Position numbers and translations under genes: made by a program. The notes under the pieces were generated by a model. The model worked only from the letters and a program-made list of their open reading frames with translations, ran no database searches and had not been told where the DNA came from. Shown here one piece after another: positions 8,805 through 40,331 of a DNA stretch of 64,000 bases (the stretch's first letter is position 1; each line of letters begins with the position of its first letter). Source of the stretch: Margaritispora aquatica (lineage: Eukaryota; Ascomycota; Leotiomycetes; Helotiales; Discinellaceae); NCBI GenBank assembly GCA_007644065.1, contig VJWN01000022.1:310001-374000 (forward strand), read 5' to 3'.

Positions 8805-9857
8805 CTACCATGCGAGCAAGTTGGCGCAATCATGGTCATCAGTCCACTTTCCATCCTCTGACCGTTCCTTGAATCGAGCTGCTCCCCAACCTTTGATTCC
8901 CTCCTTCATCCAGGAGAACAGACCCTCCTTGTTGGACGGATGTTTGTTCCAGATAAATTGAATGAAAAGGCCAGCGATATCGACCCAGAGTCTGTCTGAG
9001 AATAGATTGAAGTATTTCTTGACATCTTCCGGTGCTCCTCTGTTTGGCTGCAAGACAACAATCTTCTCAAAGCATTGCAAACCCTTTATCTGGATTCGAG
9101 AATCAAGTTCGGTGTTTGCCAAACTTCTAAGGGCCTTCTTTCCAAAGAGTTCTGGATCCTTTGAGATGGTATCAGACTCGGTGCTGAGAGTTGGGTCTAG
9201 GATCAGGAGTGGCAGCTTTTGTTGAAATATCAACTCATTTCCAGTAGCAGGGAACCAGAAGTCGTAGTTACAGCACAGTGCCTTGACCTCCAAGCCTCCT
9301 CGCATCAAAATTGCATCGATATTAAGATTGATGTAGAACGCATCCTCGCAGTAGCCCTCGGGAATAAGCTCGTAAGCCCTCAAGCCAACTTCTCTAGCCT
9401 CTCGGCAAACATGCAACATAGCTGGTACCGGGTCCTTGACAACGAGGTTCTTGCTGGGATCAAATCTGCCAACGCCATAGATAGTTGTAACTTTCAGGTG
9501 CTGGATACGAATGACACGAGCGACTTTTGAGGCTTCCTTCCAGATCATGGTTTTGATTTCGAGTGGGAGCTTCGGGAAGACCGTAAAGATTCTTTCTCCG
9601 TGTTCAACGATCTCATAGAAGTATGCAGTAGCTGGACGAAGGCCAGACTTGGCTCCGGGCTTGTATTGAGGTCGAGCATTTCGTTGTGTTCGAGCAATGG
9701 ACATGGGTCTGAGAGTAGTGGTTGGCTGAGTTGTAGAAGCTTCTTGAGAGATGGAAAGATCTTGCAGTGCGAGATCGGTTGGAGGAGCTAGAGCTACCGA
9801 GTCGTCGTGAGCTTGAGATCGAAGGGTAAGCTTAAGCTTAATCTTTGAAATAGCCAT
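8805..9857 (-). CDS. 2EXR domain-containing protein (350 aa), intact
   Basis: A single-exon gene; the first ATG gives MAISKIKLKLTLRSQ. The 2EXR domain (a fungal domain of unknown function) begins at about residue 95 with FTVFPKLPLEIKTMIWKEA and includes the usual later element LHVCREAREVGLRAYE. The first ~90 residues are polar and low in complexity. The C-terminal half (DIAGLFIQFIWNKHPS, GWGAARFKERSED) is typical of full-length family members. There is no signal peptide or membrane segment. It is one of only two undamaged 2EXR genes among about eight loci in the window; the other is at 52710. Role unknown; such families often vary between strains. Confidence 0.85.
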   Translation of the reverse strand: MAISKIKLKLTLRSQAHDDSVALAPPTDLALQDLSISQEASTTQPTTTLRPMSIARTQRNARPQYKPGAKSGLRPATAYFYEIVEHGERIFTVFPKLPLEIKTMIWKEASKVARVIRIQHLKVTTIYGVGRFDPSKNLVVKDPVPAMLHVCREAREVGLRAYELIPEGYCEDAFYINLNIDAILMRGGLEVKALCCNYDFWFPATGNELIFQQKLPLLILDPTLSTESDTISKDPELFGKKALRSLANTELDSRIQIKGLQCFEKIVVLQPNRGAPEDVKKYFNLFSDRLWVDIAGLFIQFIWNKHPSNKEGLFSWMKEGIKGWGAARFKERSEDGKWTDDHDCANLLAW

Positions 9858-12188
9858 GATGGAGTCGATCTGTAGCAATCTAGTTGGAAGCTCAACGGTC
9901 AAACACCTTCAACTAATCAGTACTGCAATGAATCAAATTGAGACCTGGATAAAGAGAGAGCTTACCTTCCGAGAGAGGTTCTGAGTTAGATCCTTGATCT
10001 CTGATTTGAAGTGTGACGTTGATTGATACAGTGGCTCAGTTGAGAGCGACTGTAACAGCTATGTGATGTGCCTAGATGATGTGACTGCGCTGATATAGCT
10101 GTAGCAGGACTTCGAGATCGAGTTCCTCGATGTTGTTTGCGTTCCGAGGCTTTCTTGAAAGAAGTTTGAAGGTGAAGGTGCAAGCTGAAGTTGTTAGCTG
10201 AATGGAGATGAGTATCGTGCGACTTCTTGAGACTCTCGTAAGTATGATGCGGTTTCATTCCACAATTCGATGATGATTATTAACTCTGAACATATTTAAA
10301 GTATTTGGGGACGGGCAGGAGTAAAATAAGCGAGATTTCTATGTCAATAAACTACTCCACGACTCAGCGACTCGAAGCAATGACGTATGGTGTACATATG
10401 TACAAAATGTATTGCAAAGGATTGATCCCTAGAATTTTTCGTGCCTTAACCATGTGAATTATTTGCACTTGCTTTTGAAGGCTCGCTAATGCAATATATC
10501 ATATCTTGCTTTGAAAACGACCCCTGGATTCTTCACACGAATACTACAAATAGGTTCTATATTACTAATTTTATATGGCCTGCACAACATCAGGTATTGA
10601 ACAGAATGGTGCCTCAAATGGCTGGACGATTTGATATTACATCGAAGAAGCTCAAAATGCGTTGTTGTATGTTTTTCTGTTCTAAGGAGCTACTAGGGAA
10701 CCGTCTTCGCTTACACGCTCGCTTAATTTTGAATAGCTCCATCTGCTAGGAACTCCTTGGTCTATTGTGATCCACGCTTCTCATCTCAAGGCTACCTTCT
10801 TCATCCAGCTTGTTAACTCCCAATTCCTCTCTGTCAACGTTCCTCGTTACGCTCCTTGCGGAACAACACCGCACCATCCCAAAGCAGCATATTGACAAGT
10901 GCCACCACACGGTAGCTCGCATCCTGCTTAGATTCGTTGTAGTGGTCCAGTAATCAGGCCTTACCACTCCTTCCTTGATGAATATCTTACCAAACACGCC
11001 TGTTTGTGCAGCCCATAGTATTACTAACACCCAACCCCAAAGATAACACAGAACTCTCTTAACAGTGACAAAGCAATGCAGTATGCATGTTATAAGCGAA
11101 AGAGCTGCAGCGGCTTCTCCAAAAATCTAAGCGCTTTGTGCCTCTGTGGTTATGGATGAGGCGAATTCCATAGAGAATGGCGAAGATGAGAGAAAATAGG
11201 GCCTGGAGGGCTCCTAGAGTGATGCGAACGTGCACAATAGGAAATTTCAGACGCTTCCCAGTACTGGTTTTTCATTGCCCTTCGTGATTCTGTTGAAATT
11301 CTTCTGGTTACGAAGCACCAAGAAGTGTTAGCGGACATATCGAGCTTATGGGCAGAAACGGACGTAACGAAACCTAACTGCTTTCAATCGGGATTCCTTA
11401 AAGAGTGGTGAGTTTCTGAAATATTGTTAGCATTTGGGGGAAATTTTTCGAGAGGAAAAGGATATGCATGGCTCATAAGGAAATGTCACATAGTCTTTTC
11501 GCAAATCTTAGCCACGTCTAGCACTATCCCGCCTCCACAAATTCCGGACCCATAAAATCTGACAATGTATATCATCGCATCTCGTAGAAGAATTCCTCAT
11601 TTGGCTTTAGGTCCTCTAGCCAAGTTCAGCCAAGAATAATCGACACGATGCTGACAAGGACTTCTCGGCTATCAAATACCAGTTTCGGGATTAGGGCATT
11701 GGTTTGGAGGCTTCGATTAAACACAAGTAACCAAGTTAGGTGCAAAATTCTGTACTTTCAGAGAATTTTCGGGCTTTGGCGAACTACGTACAGGCTGTTA
11801 ATTTGATAAGTTTCGTTTAACACTTCAAGAGATTGCCTTAAGCTTATATATTTTGGACCTAGAATTTTGCAGACATCGACTCAAATGTTTGAACAATACT
11901 CTCATTATAGCCAAGCTCCTAAAATTCGATTTTACAGTAAACATAGCCTGAGTGCACAAACCTTTGCGCCTAGTTTCGTTAGGTAGCTCATTTATTTTGG
12001 TTTTGGAACTATATTCAACAGCTACTGGCGGTAGATTATTCCTTGTCGTCTAGAATCGTATGTTTGATATATCGTGTATCAAGTTTGAGTTAGCTTATCT
12101 AATACAAAGAGAAGTTGCAACACCTATTCCACTATGAATCAAGTCTCACTAGCTGAACAGATTGACTGATGTGAAGGCAATAATCCTG
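9858..12188. other. Long spacer, no intact gene
   Basis: A 2.3-kb stretch with no supported gene. The first ~400 bases are the promoter side of the 2EXR gene. The last ~200 bases, upstream of the glucosyltransferase relic at 12189, could hold more decayed exon sequence (a phrase FILVLEL near 11990 vaguely recalls its beta strand), but I cannot support that. Confidence 0.45.
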
Positions 12189-21386: not shown

Positions 21387-24300
21387 TCAAAGAATACCAG
21401 ACCTCGAAAAGAGTCGTCCAATCACTCCCGTATTCTCTCCCCTCTTCTTTCTTTTCTTTTCCCCTTTCACTTTCACACGAAGTGAAACCCGCGCGGCTTC
21501 TTCGAAAACCTCATCAACACCTTCATTAGTCAGGGCAGAGCATTCTAAATACTTGTACGCTTCTATTTTTTTTCGAACTTCTTCGCCCTGTCCAACAGTT
21601 ATTAGAGCTCTCAACGGCACGGTTTAAGACGCAAACCTGGTCACAAGTCACCAGTTTTTCACCAGTTATCCTGAGATCTTCAATAGTTTTGGGGTTGTTA
21701 CGAAGATCTTTCCTCAACCCGACAAGAATGATTGGCATGCCCGGACAGAAATGTTTCACCTCGTGGATCCACTGCGACGAGTCAGTTAATATTGAATATT
21801 ACATAATAATTGAAGATACCTTTTCTTGAGCATTGTAAAGAGAATCGGGGGAGTCTATGGCAAAACATATCAAAATGACATGTGTATCTGGATACGCGAA
21901 AGGTCGTAGTCTGTCGAAACCTTCCAGCCCACAAGTATCCCACAACCCAAGCTCGACACGCTCTCCATCTACTGTAACATCTGTGACGTAGGTGTCATAA
22001 TACACTGTTACTATTTGATGCTTACTAAGTCAGTGAGGAGGACAATAGAATGGGCTAAAGGTGCTTTTTAACTACCGGTGGGAAAATTCCTCTCGCAAAG
22101 ACACTATTCAACTCAGTTTAGAATAAACCAGCTTTACTTATTCGAAGCCACTCACTTTATTAGAGATGTTTTTCCCTGACAATCACCTACTATTACAACC
22201 TTTCTGCGGATTTCGGCGCCACCTGATGTGGAAGTCAACGGATGAGGTGATGAAACCGTCACTAAGTCTCTGCCATCGCGGTCGCCAGCCTCCTCTATAA
22301 CTTGTCCCTTTTTGACAATAGCCGTAACTTCGTGGTGAGAAAATGAAGAAGGGTCAAATTCTAACTGATCCTCCGTGGGTTCAATATGGTTATCTATACT
22401 CGATAGGTCGACTTCTAGTATAGCAGCCTCGATTGGTTGTACAGGAACGTTCACTCTTATTGGAATTTCGAGTGAATCCGGAATTGGCTGAACACTTTTT
22501 ATCGATAAAGCAGCCTCGGACAATAATAAAATGGTTGAATGAGTAGCTTTTGTCGATGTCGAACTGACAAAGTTGCGAAAAGGGTCGTATTCTTCGCTTT
22601 CCTTCCTACTTGCTACTAAGCCAACACTTTCTGACCTGGAATGGCCAAGGGATATGGCCGGAGAATCTGATGGCACAGTCGAAGACGTTGGCTGATTGGA
22701 CGACAAATCTAAAGCCGACGTTGATGATGAAAAAGCTAAGTCTAATGAGGGAGAAATGTTAGCACGGGAAAATTCCATGAATACTGAAATATACCTGACA
22801 TCAGACCCATTGAGGGCGGTTCATTAATAAACTTTCTATGAAGTTTCGGCACTATTGAATTTTCAGTAACGGATGCTGAGGTTGTTTCTGAGGTAATTTC
22901 TTTAGTGGAAGTGAGTTGAAGAGGGGACAAGTCAGCCAAGGGATCAGATACATGCTCAGAAGGCAGATATGTGCTATCATCATCGAGCAACTGGATTACG
23001 CCCTCCAGAATGCCAAACTTTTGAGCTGCTGTTATATCTTCCTGGATAGCTTTATTTAGAGGCTGTTCTACATCAGAGATATTCGTTTGTCGCTTCTTTG
23101 GGTCATGATTTATTTGTTGCGGACCAACTGGTGAGTTCAGTGCTTGAGTGGAAGAACTCAGGCGCTGTGCATTTGATTGGGTAGCATCCGGCGAGTTCAG
23201 CTCTGACGTATTCTGCAACAAAAACTCGGAGAGAATCGCTGCGTAGGCCTCTTCCTCGTCGTAGTCGCCGCCCATGTGGCAGACACGTGTCAGAGCCTTT
23301 AAAGAGCTCTCCACCCCTGACGCCCCGTTCAAACCCATCTTCCTATAGCCCTTGAGAGCTCGTCTCCCGTAAAGGAGTGCCTCGGCATAGGACTTCTTAT
23401 AGATAAGAACATCAACCAAGGTAAGCAAGTCCATGAGAACTCCGCCACTATCGCGAGAATTTTCTCGCAATTCGACAGAAATTTTCTCTAGTAGCAAAGA
23501 CTGTGCTTCGTCCCACTTTTCCTGAGCCAAATAGACACTCAGAAGCAATGTCATGATTTCATCCTCGGATATTGGAATTTGGTGTAGAGGTGTTGTTGAC
23601 ACATTTGACGAGATTCTGGCGAGACAGTTGTGGAAAAGGCGTTCTGCAGACCCAAAATCTTTTTCTCGAAATTTCTTTTTGCCTTGTTTCATCAGGGCTT
23701 GAAATTTTTCCATTTCCAAATCACTGTCAGAGTCAGATTGTTCATATCCTACTCTCTCTTCAACTGATTGAAGGCGAGCCGACACAAGGTTTCGCCGCTT
23801 GGACGAAGAACCTGCTACGTTTTCCTCTTCGAATTTATAGACGGTGTTTGATGATATCCACCTAAGCATTGTTTCTCCTGGCTCGGATGGAAAACAGTCG
23901 CCGAATTCAGACCCAAAGGTAACTGAGATGCCTTCCGCATGTTCCACTCCTAGGGTGGTCGATGCCGAAGAAACAATACTAGCGGCGGATTGAACACAAT
24001 TCCTTAAATTATTTAATGCAAAGAGCGGGGTGCCACTCGCGTTTGATTCGACGACCTTTTGCAAGCTGCTCATGCGGTTATTGATATCCAAAGCTATACG
24101 CCGGATGGCCTGATTCAGTTCCTCTAGATTAGGCAGGATCTTATCAGTTGACTCTTGAAAAGTAACCTGGTTCCAGCTGGTTACGTTAAAGTCTTATTTC
24201 GAGGAGTGGATACTGAAACGACTCACAGTATCACTGTTTGCAAAGAGAGTTGCAAGGTGTCTCGATACGATCGAACCTGTAGCTGGAAGATTCCAATCTC

Positions 24301-24672
24301 CTCCGATGCTCCCTTGAGTCTAAGATGCTTTCGCGTCCCATCAATTACACTGACGCTCTTATTTACTTTCTCGAGAGTTTCCTGCAGTCGGAGGAGCGTA
24401 TTCTGGCCATCATTGATTGATATTGAGAGGTTGTTCCAGTGATTACCAATATGGCCTGTAGCTTGGAAAGAGGCTTGAATCCGTTCTTGTCCGAAAGTAT
24501 CTTTCATTAGGCGCAAGACTTGCGTAAAGCTCTCAACATCAGTGAGTAATCCCTTGACCTTGGCGTCCGCAATATTAGCGCCATCGTAGAAGTCCTTAAG
24601 AGCCGAGCCGACTTTGACGCATGTACTTAACAATCCTAGAACACCAGCCGTTATAGACAAAGGATCAGCCAT
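21387..24672 (-). CDS. Fungal_N-TPR-Rho-like GTPase fusion protein (992 aa)
   Basis: Seven exons, all in phase: 24227-24672, 22795-24176, 22156-22741, 22076-22103 (28 nt), 21820-22020, 21637-21771, 21387-21587; introns are 48-55 nt. Residues 1 to about 290 form the fungal N-terminal domain found in front of STAND/NLR proteins ([15 protein letters not shown]...[13 protein letters not shown]). About 310-460 look like TPR repeats ([38 protein letters not shown]). A Ser/Thr/acidic linker follows to about 785, then a Rho-family domain ([59 protein letters not shown]). Oddities: the P-loop reads GDCQGKTS, one residue short of GxxxxGK[ST]; Leu replaces the catalytic Gln after DTxG (about residue 846); the NKxD motif is LRKD; a polybasic tail ([10 protein letters not shown]) is present, but the protein ends FSRSGIL with no CAAX cysteine. 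Likely a pseudo-GTPase or a constitutively bound module. Confidence 0.85.
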
Positions 24673-26513: not shown

Positions 26514-27978
26514 CTACTTATCTAAATCTCTACACCACGGTCTCCCTCTCCCCACATTCGCATCACACAACCTCCCCTCAATCACCATGCCTATCAAACT
26601 AGCCACGCAAATCCCCGCACTATCACTCACACTGGTCGCGCCCAAACTAAACTCCCTCTCATGCACAGGGACATTCTCCATGATTTCCGCAAACGTATTG
26701 ACATACACGGCTCCACCTAGCAAACCCTCCCAGAACACGACTGCAAACACAATCCACACGGATGGGATGAAGAAGTAGACTGAGTGTGCGGAAAGGAGGA
26801 GTAGATTGAGGCATTGGAGGAGGGAAGGGAGGTAGAGGTTGTGTAGCCGTATGAAGGGTGATGAGGAGCGTGAGATGAACACGCCGAGTTGGTAGAGGAA
26901 GGCGTAGAGGGGGTAGAAGGAGCGGTAGTGTGAGAATGGTGTGCTGGGGAGGGGAAAAAGCAATGTGGGTGAGACGCCTTGGTTGATGGTGTATTCGGCA
27001 ATGTAGACAAGGAGGAGGGGTGCCATGTAGGGGATGAAGAGGGCTTGGGTGCGGCGGAGATGGGAGGCGAGAGAGTTGTGGGATTCTTTTGTGGAAGATG
27101 TGGGGGAGGCGGGCCGGGAGTGTGAAGCATAGGCTTCGGATGCAATTCCGGGACCGGGTGCGAGGAGAGCATCGGCTGCGGTGTCGACGGGGAGGGATTG
27201 GATGTCAGCATCGTCGATGGAGATGCGGGGGATGGAGGCGTAGTTTTGTGCTCGGCGGAGAGGAGCTTGTGGTAGGATGAGGAAGAATGCGATGGGCATG
27301 ATGAAAGGTAGGAATGCACATGTCAAGAGACTGTTCTTGACTGTCATCCCAATAGTGTTGGTGAGGAGGACATAAAGTCCTGCTCCCACAAGACCTGCTC
27401 CTCCTGTTCCACTTCCCCATGCTGCAAGGGAGAATGGCCCGTAGTAATGTGTCAATCCTAGGAGACTCAATTCTCCGCCACCTGAGCTCAAACTAGCCAT
27501 GGCTACTCCCACCAACTTTATCGAGATTGACCCTCCGTCCTCCAGCACTGATGGTGTCAAGGCGATCAGGAACATGCCAGCTGCAGAGAGACCGCACATG
27601 ATGTTGATTCGGACGGAGTATGGAACTCGATGGATGAAGTATGGTGCGATCAATTTGGTTAAGAAGGAAGGGAGGACATCTGCCAGCAGCACGACTCCCT
27701 TTGGCACCGATGGCCCGACGAGATCCAAAGCCGCAGAGAGGATGATCACATAGGAGACATTGTTGATCAGTCCTAGGTGTGTTAGCAATGTCCAGTCCAG
27801 TCAGAGAGTAGGCTAGGGACTCACCAAACAGCCAAAATGCCACCAGAACCGACGTATCAGCACCTTGAAAGATAGCCTTGAATCTCGCTTTATACACTGC
27901 CCATGATGATCCAGGACTCCCAGGCATAGGCAGTAGTCCCGAGGAAGATGGCGAGCGATTCATGGTGGTGCCGTACAT
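26514..27978 (-). CDS. BTN1: CLN3/battenin family vacuolar membrane protein (Btn1), 470 aa
   Basis: Two exons, 27825-27978 and 26514-27772, with a 52-nt intron (GTGAGT...CCTAG); together 470 aa. The protein has about ten hydrophobic segments. It has the CLN3 hallmarks: ...FWLFG at the junction with [17 protein letters not shown], the loop [37 protein letters not shown], and [19 protein letters not shown] large hydrophilic loop (about 220-290) separates the halves. The C-terminal half keeps [20 protein letters not shown] and [12 protein letters not shown]. In yeast Btn1 acts at the vacuole/Golgi in pH balance and basic amino-acid transport; human CLN3 loss causes Batten disease. I chose the ATG at 27978 because the frame further up lacks an ATG; the ATG at 27963 is an alternative. 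No damage was seen. Confidence 0.93.
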
Positions 27979-38526: not shown

Positions 38527-39564
38527 CTAACTGACATGATTCGTATCTGAGGCACGAACAACCTTCGGCTTGCTTACTCTCTGCATCTTTACTTCAACTG
38601 CAAGCCTTTCGGCATCATCCAGACCCTCTGTCGTGAGCTGACCATTGACTTCCGGTTGCAAAATGTACCTACGCATATAATCGACTGGAAAACTTGGAGC
38701 ATCCCGAAGTACATAATCATTTATAAGACATGTGATGCTATTCAATGCGGGAAATGCTTTCTTGACTCGAACAACGTCGTTCAAGCAAGTGAGGTCTGCG
38801 TATAGAACAGAAATGTGTTTGATGGCAATTCGGGTGAACTCAGAAAGGCTGTCAAACGAGATATGCCCCAGATCCCAGCGCTGGAATCTGACTCCATGCA
38901 ATATGTCGTTGGGAAAGATGTAAATCTTGCGAGTAAGGTCAAGATTGCGTTGGTTGAATTTGAGGACGTTTTGAAAATCTTGGAGCCACCATCGGACGCG
39001 ATTGACCTTTGTCGGCTGATTTCCCTTTGAAGCCTCAGCGTTGGCTACAACTGCAGAACCAGAGCCGGTCATTGTCAAAGCTCTCAAGTGGAGTTCTGGA
39101 TTGCCCTGACTAGCAATTTTAACGAGCTCTTGAGATGGTATTGCAAGTCTGTTTTGGTTCTTTGTGGACTCAAGTGGGTCATCGATGATACAAAAACGAC
39201 GTGACTCGCGGCAGGTGTGCAAGATAATAGGAACATTTGATCCACTCCTGACAATGGAATAACCAAATTTGTGACGCACGGCTGGCTCTGAGCTCACCAG
39301 TGCAATCACAGCCAAATCTGCATTCGCTGCTTTGCCCCATATTTCCTGCCGAAGCTCCAAAGGAAGTTGGGTGAAGTGTGTGAAGGTTGAGAACAACTCG
39401 TGGAACTCGTTGGGTATGGGCAAGCGAGCCGTAGGTGGCGAGATCTTCATGAATTCTAGAGGAGCTGCATCAATGTATTGTTGACTGGTTTCTTGCTTCT
39501 CTGAGTCGCTGGTAGGTACTTGTGGGCTTGGCTGAGAAGAAGAGGGTGAGGGCTGATCGATATT

Positions 39565-40331
39565 CCCTACGGAAGCAGGTTTGTCATATATTATAACCCA
39601 AATCACTATAAGTAATAGCGATCTCGCTATAAAATATAGTAACTCGGTTTCGAGTATAACGGAGGTTTATAAGTGGATTTTTACTTCGTTATAATTAATA
39701 GTAAGAATTACTATACTATTAGTCTTATAATATATCTTACTATACTTTATAAGGGCCTCGTTATCTAGATCTATATATATAGATATATATATAGATATAT
39801 CGTATCCGGATCCTTTAGATAATATAAAATAGACTATACCCGGATATTTTACCACCGTAAATACCTTATTCCTCTTATTCCCCTTATTCCTCTTCTTTAT
39901 TCTCCTTCGAATTCGTTCTCTTATAGACTCTTATAGACAGTAGATCCAAAGGTAGGTAGTAGATCCAAAGGTAGGTAGTAGATCCAGTAGATCCAAAGGT
40001 AGGTCAGTAGCAGATCCAAAGGTAGGTTAGTAGCAGATCTAAAGGTAGGGAGTAGATCTAGTAGATCCAAGGGCAGTATATAGATTCGTAGATAGATTTG
40101 TAGATTCCTAGGGTTCTAAACTTATAGTAAAAGTCGTTATTTTTAATAGCGATACCGTTATAAAATATAACTAAGGGTTATAACGAAGTCTAAAAAATAG
40201 CTATAAAAAAAGTTGAATTTCGTTATAACTAATAGTAAGCGCCGTTATAAATCGTTAAAATTCCCGTTGTTTTTTATAACAATTATAATAGTAATATTTC
40301 TATATATTATAACGAACCTACTTCCGTAGGG
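39565..40331. mobile_element. Non-autonomous DNA transposon (MITE-like), 767 bp
   Basis: The ends are inverted copies: CCCTACGGAAGCAGGTTTGT on the left and, read inward from the right end, CCCTACGGAAGTAGGTTCGT; about 24 bases match with three C/T differences. Direct ATT copies flank it (39562-39564 and 40332-40334), giving a three-base target duplication. The interior is AT-rich and codes for no transposase. It contains direct repeats of TTCGTTATAAYTAATAGTAA near each end and a tandem array of AGATCCAAAGGTAGGTAGT units at 39944-40060. Superfamily unclear: three-base duplications occur in PIF/Harbinger and CACTA elements, but the target ATT is not the usual TWA of Harbinger. Confidence 0.85.
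39944..40060. repeat. Tandem AGATCCAAAGGTAGG units inside the transposon
   Basis: About six degenerate copies of a ~20-bp unit (GTAGATCCAAAGGTAGGTA) with length variation, inside the element at 39565-40331. Confidence 0.8.

Follow-up and report, generated by a model that had tools for sequence, protein, structure and literature searches.

A RHO1 gene captured behind a PigL_N-TPR-like part in Margaritispora aquatica and its relatives: a candidate non-cycling, Rho-shaped scaffold protein

What a Rho GTPase domain does at the end of a much larger protein is the question raised by a predicted gene of the ascomycete Margaritispora aquatica. The gene lies on the minus strand, from 24672 to 21387, of a 64,000-nucleotide (nt) stretch of contig VJWN01000022.1 (assembly GCA_007644065.1, positions 310,001 to 374,000), which was analysed as a whole and is referred to here as the window. 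An initial annotation made from the sequence had described the gene as an intact fusion of an N-terminal helical domain, TPR-like repeats and an aberrant Rho domain. The account favoured in this work, at about even odds, is that the gene encodes a real, conserved multidomain protein in which RHO1 was joined behind a PigL_N-TPR-like part and the Rho switch cycle was then lost, so that the protein would be a non-cycling, Rho-shaped scaffold.

Exon-by-exon rebuilding of the gene reproduced the annotated coordinates, strand and seven exons exactly. The exons (446, 1382, 586, 28, 201, 135 and 201 nt) join in phase into 2979 nt, encoding 992 amino acids (aa) and a stop; all six introns are of the GT-AG type and 48-55 nt long, and in-frame stops lie 5' of the ATG. 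Pfam returned seven families for the spliced protein at E ≤ 1, in the order PigL_N, a weak TPR_12 match and Ras along the protein. This agrees with the domain order annotated initially and identifies the N-terminal domain as PigL_N. DUF948, TPR_7 and LRR_4 were weak matches, each below its own cut-off, and no NACHT, NB-ARC or other STAND NTPase was among the seven families for the whole protein.

The Rho1-derived domain comprises residues 785-965 (21471..22217, minus strand, as for all features of the gene). The Pfam Ras profile PF00071 matches it at residues 790-959 with 132.3 bits (cut-off 21.6), and the related Roc profile matches the same stretch with 62.3 bits. Its best sequence matches in the Protein Data Bank (PDB) are Rho1 and RhoA, the nearest being Rho1 of A. 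fumigatus (6jik). The source genome (42.4 Mb, 49 contigs) has a normal RHO1 on contig 1, whose introns lie at (codon, phase) (22,2), (32,0), (98,0) and (143,0); those of the fused Rho lie at (804,2), (814,0), (881,0) and (926,0). All four agree in place and phase, with an offset of 783 codons that drops to 782 past a missing P-loop residue and returns to 783 past an extra residue in switch I. Exon 3 (22156..22741; residues 610-804) holds the last part of the linker and the beginning of the Rho domain with its P-loop, exon 4 (22076..22103; residues 805-814) is 28 nt long like exon 2 of own RHO1, exon 5 (21820..22020; residues 815-881) carries switch I and switch II, exon 6 (21637..21771; residues 882-926) bears the G4 motif and, at 135 nt, equals exon 4 of RHO1 in length, and exon 7 (21387..21587; residues 927-992 and the stop) encodes the G5 motif and a basic tail. 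The domain opens at residue 785 with AEIRRK, which are codons 2-7 of RHO1, the RHO1 Met being replaced. Given the four matching introns and this start, RHO1 was joined at the DNA level from codon 2: a RHO1 gene with all four coding introns was captured as DNA behind the PigL_N-TPR-like part.

Searches with the whole protein found at least 82 homologues (7991 candidates scored), and a profile search at least 112. A search with the Rho part only gave 69 matches, of which many lie in large, unrelated predicted proteins and are canonical Rho domains; the 82 listed homologues match the window protein in its head, in its middle and TPR-like part, or in both. Head, TPR-like part and Rho occur together in proteins of a member of the Mollisiaceae (P0001), Lachnellula arida (P0002), Hyaloscypha (P0004), Alternaria (P0016), Elasticomyces (P0005), Cladosporium (P0026), Zasmidium (P0093) and Fusarium (P0035). 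A class look-up of six species placed Halenospora, Lachnellula and Hyaloscypha in the Leotiomycetes, Zasmidium and Elasticomyces in the Dothideomycetes and Fusarium in the Sordariomycetes. Three classes of filamentous ascomycetes have relatives that keep the order head-TPR-Rho, among them the Leotiomycetes, in which the initial annotation had proposed to look for orthologues. A one-off oddity was ruled out, as relatives keep the same domain order. With at least 82 homologues and four introns matching those of RHO1, the annotated fusion is more than chance. In public databases the relatives are unnamed or named automatically, for instance as 'GTP-binding protein rhoA'. A search of the openly licensed part of PubMed Central (PMC), to which subscription journals do not belong, yielded no such fusion in titles or abstracts among the matches listed. 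The statement that no protein with this order had been described agrees with the titles and abstracts listed and does not hold for the sequence databases.

Twenty-four of the 82 listed homologues contain the middle or TPR-like part and have a frame that ends at most 40 aa past the P-loop, at about the place of the first intron of RHO1; their frames are continuous from the TPR-like part to the P-loop. Twenty-two of the 24 come from sources labelled jgi, lgn or ena, entries of which are taken to be unspliced frames. These frames, together with the RHO1 intron match, are why a wrong joining of two adjacent genes is nearly excluded as an explanation of the gene model. It would fit a gene model of Halenospora that spans the middle alone; against it stand also the six clean introns and the loss of the RHO1 start Met, there being no Met in residues 608-893 of the spliced protein and therefore no start Met of the Rho part's own.

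The fused Rho is 68% identical to the genome's own RHO1 over 179 aa. Own RHO1 itself shares 91, 86 and 83% identity with the Rho1 parts of proteins from Chaetothyriales, Amoeboaphelidium and Puccinia; these yardsticks (P0086, P0088 and P0094) are Rho1 parts of larger predicted proteins. At 142 sites that are invariant across the four Rho1 sequences, the fused Rho is changed at 43. Over 185 codons compared with own RHO1, the proportion of nonsynonymous differences (pN) was 0.21 and that of synonymous differences (pS) 0.87, the latter saturated, with 44 differences at first, 36 at second and 118 at third codon positions. Judged from these counts, the fused Rho is constrained and not neutral, its change relative to own RHO1 being strongly purifying. 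A pseudogene was ruled out by the open frame and by pN/pS.

In a tree of Rho domains, eight fused-domain rows (two from one protein) grouped with modest support (82/86), in the presence of long branches and with other fused rows unplaced. Changes relative to RHO1 that are shared with the window protein are few, amounting to 1-7 identical states per relative. As far as these comparisons go, RHO1 may have been captured repeatedly and independently; the intron shared with RHO1 and a G5 change from Lys to Leu in the window protein, P0001 and P0004 point to one origin at least in those Leotiomycetes. Identity to the window protein differs by region: in the order head, middle, TPR-like part, linker and Rho, it is 84, 80, 66, 40 and 60% for P0001 and 65, 56, 58, 20 and 52% for P0002. 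The corresponding values are 39, 38, 28, 23 and 60% for Zasmidium P0093 and 44, 45, 36, 22 and 35% for Alternaria P0016. Hence, among near relatives change is faster in the Rho part than in the head, and the picture is mixed for far ones.

The term aberrant, used for the Rho domain in the initial annotation, proved apt. The P-loop GDCQGKT (22167..22187) is one residue shorter than the pattern GxxxxGK[ST], switch I is one residue longer than in RHO1, and switch II reads DTCGLE (21922..21939) where RHO1 has DTAGQE, the catalytic Gln being replaced by Leu. The basic C-terminal tail (21387..21470) ends with SGIL and is without a CAAX box. These features were followed in 23 TPR-bearing Rho domains, that is, the window protein and 22 aligned rows, which include close copies (five rows from Elasticomyces, three from Alternaria, and P0022/P0026/P0027). 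Left out were P0017, a near copy of P0016, the first Rho copies of Elasticomyces proteins, and P0025, P0031, P0064, P0065 and P0077, whose Rho is incomplete; P0075 ends within the Rho domain, so that its tail is uninformative. The spacing of GxxxxGK[ST] fails in the window protein and is kept in the other 22 rows; among the 24 end-of-frame P-loops, a short P-loop occurs also in P0059. The P-loop Lys, the following Ser/Thr and the G5 Ser are kept in all 23 domains, the G4 Asp in 22 and the switch-II Asp in 21. The catalytic Gln is lost in 20 of the 23. The switch-I Thr is found by column in nine, and one column off in five Elasticomyces rows (P0005b, P0008b, P0011b, P0014b and P0019b); the switch-I Asn has become Thr in 8 of 16. 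No CAAX box is present in any of the 23, and a basic tail resembling [FLI]R-x-L-F occurs in 19 (mean 1.7, maximum 8 in 2000 shuffles) or, with near copies removed, in 11 of 14 (mean 0.8, maximum 4). This tail pattern is common to members from three classes.

Four Elasticomyces elasticus proteins (P0005, P0008, P0011 and P0014) contain tandem Rho stretches, of which the first has a switch II starting with LIETS and the second is nearer to RHO1; three of the four carry an SH3 domain according to Pfam.

In the scaffold account, the helical head and the basic tail would hold the protein at membranes or in oligomers, the TPR-like part, with added linker domains in some relatives, would bind partners, and the Rho part would offer a fixed Rho-like surface to a partner of Rho1 (GEF, GAP, GDI or effector) without hydrolysing GTP. 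A domain with neither the catalytic Gln nor a full-length P-loop should be a poor switch, and in the lineage of the window protein nucleotide binding itself has probably been weakened or lost. That the Rho part is instead a working switch, still able to bind GTP and to signal, is considered unlikely; in this view the Gln-to-Leu change would keep it on, and it would be a long-lived branch of Rho1 tied to a scaffold. Such a switch would be in keeping with the P-loop Lys and Ser/Thr and the G5 Ser in all 23 domains and the G4 Asp in 22, and TPR-less PigL_N-Rho relatives look canonical in P-loop and switch II. Binding of phosphate and effectors should, however, suffer from the short P-loop and the switch I that is too long by one residue in the window protein, and a prenylation box is absent.

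Several observations weigh against the scaffold account. Three of the 23 domains (P0026, P0027 and P0035) keep the catalytic Gln. Rho1 binds effectors through switch I, and with the Thr of this region kept in nine of 23 it is doubtful that the domain presents a Rho-like surface to effectors. The tail pattern was defined post hoc, when the tails had already been inspected, and the 23 rows on which it was counted include close copies. Recognising the Rho part is difficult in P0006, P0029, P0075 and both paralogues in the own genome, and P0082, one of the 24 end-of-frame P-loops, has lost the P-loop Lys to Met; slow loss fits these cases as well as scaffolding does. Finally, in the annotation of P0174 of Halenospora varia, the closest named relative by identity among the matches listed (88%), head and Rho are missing and a middle piece of 379 aa is all that remains; this species thus has a copy that is either broken or badly modelled.

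The two paralogues with head and TPR-like part lie on contigs 16 and 26 and are 57-59% identical to the window protein in the head and 39-44% beyond. On contig 16 (L028), Rho remnants scored 32.1 and 21.6 bits in a heavily degraded Rho part; by eye, the long frame ends with VVGPRSCGKTHFLR and GPRSCGKT stands at the place of the P-loop. On contig 26 (L027) a significant Rho match is absent, and traces are visible by eye alone (VLVIGDHHYLGRG, with GDHHYLGRG at the place of the P-loop). Contig 5 encodes a more distant relative with matches to PigL_N, TPR and ankyrin. These degraded copies, like the barely recognisable Rho of P0006, P0029 and P0075 and the homologues without a Rho match (part of which are partial models or frames), would suit a functionless passenger, captured once and now being lost, with the head and the TPR-like part doing the work. 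Such decay is rendered very unlikely by the frame of the window gene, which is open throughout the Rho part, by a pN far below pS, by the tail pattern in members of three classes and by the P-loop Lys in all 23 complete domains.

The N-terminal domain was assigned to PigL_N (PF17111, Helo_like_N; residues 2-193, 24044..24669) with 30.5 bits, which exceeds the curated profile cut-off of 27.2. It is split by intron 1. Exon 1 (24227..24672; residues 1-148 and two bases) encodes most of this helical domain and ends at the donor GTGAGT; in both own-genome paralogues, too, the open frame is interrupted at this residue motif. Exon 2 (22795..24176; residues 149-609) encodes the end of the helical domain, a conserved middle motif, the TPR-like domain and the first part of the linker. 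In models of orthologues the head is a helical bundle. The head model of the relative P0156, a bundle of long helices, gave generic helical matches, none at a Foldseek E ≤ 0.001, and neither HET-S nor MLKL was among the 50 rows obtained per tool (Foldseek, VIA-align), which showed generic helical bundles instead. As the models match generic bundles alone, kinship with HeLo stands on the Pfam profile only.

The TPR-like domain (residues 291-490, 23153..23752) holds as a weak call. TPR_12 matches residues 362-428 with 24.0 bits, below the cut-off of 30.1, and a PDB sequence search with head and TPR-like part returned kinesin light chain at E 0.003, the remainder being chance-level calmodulin matches. 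The AlphaFold model of the Lachnellula arida orthologue P0002 (46 rows, mean pLDDT, the predicted local distance difference test score, 67) has a helical head, eight mostly high-confidence helices in the TPR-like part (residues 304-483), a stretch of low confidence (487-853) and, at 859-1035, a Rho fold, for which the top PDB match is again 6jik, with a TM of 0.96 to the target. A conserved motif without a Pfam match lies between head and TPR-like part of the window protein (residues 230-270, window positions of about 23813-23935, minus strand). The linker between the TPR-like and Rho parts (residues 491-784, 22218..23152) is rich in Ser, Thr and Pro and contains no Pfam domain.

In relatives, domains have been added after the TPR-like part. 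Pfam was run on 68 proteins (67 of the 82 listed homologues, and P0093), and ten of them have extra domains over the curated cut-off in this position: SH3 in P0005, P0049, P0058 and P0062, UBA in P0050 and P0057, EH in P0006 and P0028, MSP in P0047 and SOG2 in P0072. Just below the cut-off were UBA in P0040, P0043, P0066 and P0073, PX in P0093, RING in P0006 and a piece of a P-type ATPase in P0041. A Rho domain or P-loop follows the added domain in P0005, P0006, P0062, P0072 and P0093; none was found after it in P0028, P0041, P0047, P0049, P0050, P0057 and P0058, some of whose frames may stop at an intron. The jgi or lgn labels of P0028, P0047, P0050, P0057 and P0062 make it less likely that their added domains originate from joined gene models. 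In P0041 of Coniochaeta ligniaria, a degenerate part of a P4-type ATPase was seen by eye behind the head-TPR chassis (Cation_ATPase 21.2 bits, cut-off 21.7).

Rho is also found in different company. Elasticomyces elasticus P0121 (LTR17_024043), the one example seen, consists of a nucleotide-binding domain (NPHP3_N with 111 bits; NACHT itself scores 17.9 bits, below its cut-off), ankyrin repeats and a C-terminal Rho with the P-loop GDGQCGKT, the catalytic Gln, an altered switch I and the CAAX-like end CWVM. Rho has thus also been added to a protein of the NLR type. The initial annotation had suggested that the window protein could itself be an NLR-like receptor; this is not supported, as Pfam detects no NACHT, NB-ARC or other STAND switch in the protein and its Rho should be a poor one.

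Added domains bear on the main, though tentative, alternative to the scaffold account, namely that the protein serves in defence or incompatibility as an immune protein with an integrated decoy, a role that the initial annotation had also considered: on the PigL_N-TPR-like chassis, the captured RHO1 copy would be a bait for effectors of attackers that target Rho1, and contact with the bait would free a membrane-acting head. The available text of PMC9815663 treats PF17111 as HeLo-like and places it in proteins that work together with fungal NLRs, and a C-terminal CHK-2 kinase has been proposed as an integrated decoy in fungal NLRs (PMC12258605, as far as that text was available). The same chassis is followed by SH3, UBA, EH, MSP or SOG2 in the ten relatives named above, and by PX, RING, further UBA or a P-type ATPase piece just below the cut-off in others, and P0121 joins Rho with its CAAX-like end to a nucleotide-binding domain and ankyrin repeats. 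The change of the fused Rho at 43 of 142 Rho1-invariant sites fits a decoy as well. Several findings tell against it. NACHT and NB-ARC are absent from the protein according to Pfam. Residues on which Rho-modifying toxins act are often lost: of the 23 domains, three keep the catalytic Gln and nine, by column, the switch-I Thr, and the switch-I Asn has changed to Thr in 8 of 16. Among the Leotiomycetes P0001, P0002 and P0004, conservation is good in the head (identities of 65-84%) and in the TPR-like part (58-66%). Defence genes were absent from the ten neighbouring frames scanned, which cover part of the window.

Ten of the 27 long frames of the window were scanned, and none of these ten has a NACHT, NB-ARC or STAND switch. 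The next scanned long frame upstream of the fusion gene encodes a CLN3 homologue (26517-27800, minus strand; 522 bits), and two frames of the 2EXR family are located at 8808-9908 and 38530-39666, both on the minus strand.

In fungi, Rho1 governs wall synthesis and polarity. The window protein shares with the fungal Rho1/RhoA subfamily similarity over the whole G domain, 68% identity to own RHO1, the four introns and AEIRRK; it differs in that its Rho stands behind 784 residues and has a short P-loop, an altered switch I, no catalytic Gln and no CAAX box. TPR-less PigL_N-Rho proteins (P0124, P0125, P0126 and P0132), exemplified by the 637-aa 'rhoA' of Aspergillus lentulus, likewise combine this head domain with a C-terminal Rho; unlike the window protein they are without a TPR-like match, and all four keep the catalytic Gln and the P-loop spacing. 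RhoBTB, Miro and Roco proteins carry a Rho or Ras domain inside a large protein, and some of them do not hydrolyse GTP. Their partner domains differ from those of the window protein, in which the source is RHO1 and the chassis the fungal PigL_N-TPR-like part. The window protein is a multidomain atypical Rho. Ras proteins of the Rit/Rin type have no prenylation box and end instead in a tail that is basic and hydrophobic; the tail of the window protein is like theirs, and relatedness is limited to the G domain.

Big Ras GTPases (BRG, TBRG-1) are fungal proteins several-fold larger than small GTPases, in which G4 is poorly conserved or missing and G5 is altered, some of them being annotated as P-loop, AAA or IMAP proteins (PMC8146680, in the available part of the text). 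Measured against that partial description, the window protein is set apart by its G4 Asp, its G5 Ser-Ala and its Rho1-like domain. Fungal NLRs with non-canonical C-termini, as described in the accessible text of PMC12258605, resemble it in having HeLo-like heads, repeats and, in some cases, an added C-terminal host domain, and differ from it in their nucleotide-binding STAND domain; in the main text of that source, to the extent available, no word begins with 'GTPase' or 'Ras'.

This is a little-studied protein family of filamentous fungi, with a non-canonical copy of Rho1 and with TPR-bearing and TPR-less branches that differ in the catalytic Gln; it provides a natural series from a switch to a fixed part. 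Among the database entries titled 'GTP-binding protein rhoA' or 'Rho1' are proteins far larger than RHO1 and distinct from it. A wider and doubtful generalisation would be that filamentous ascomycetes possess a chassis of PigL_N, middle motif and TPR-like repeats behind which host genes or domains, most prominently RHO1, become lodged as fixed baits or docking parts. Such a chassis would form a fungal counterpart of integrated-domain immune receptors without a nucleotide-binding switch of its own, in which Rho would keep its shape and lose its cycle. The domains added in some relatives make integrated baits outside NLRs a testable idea in fungi.

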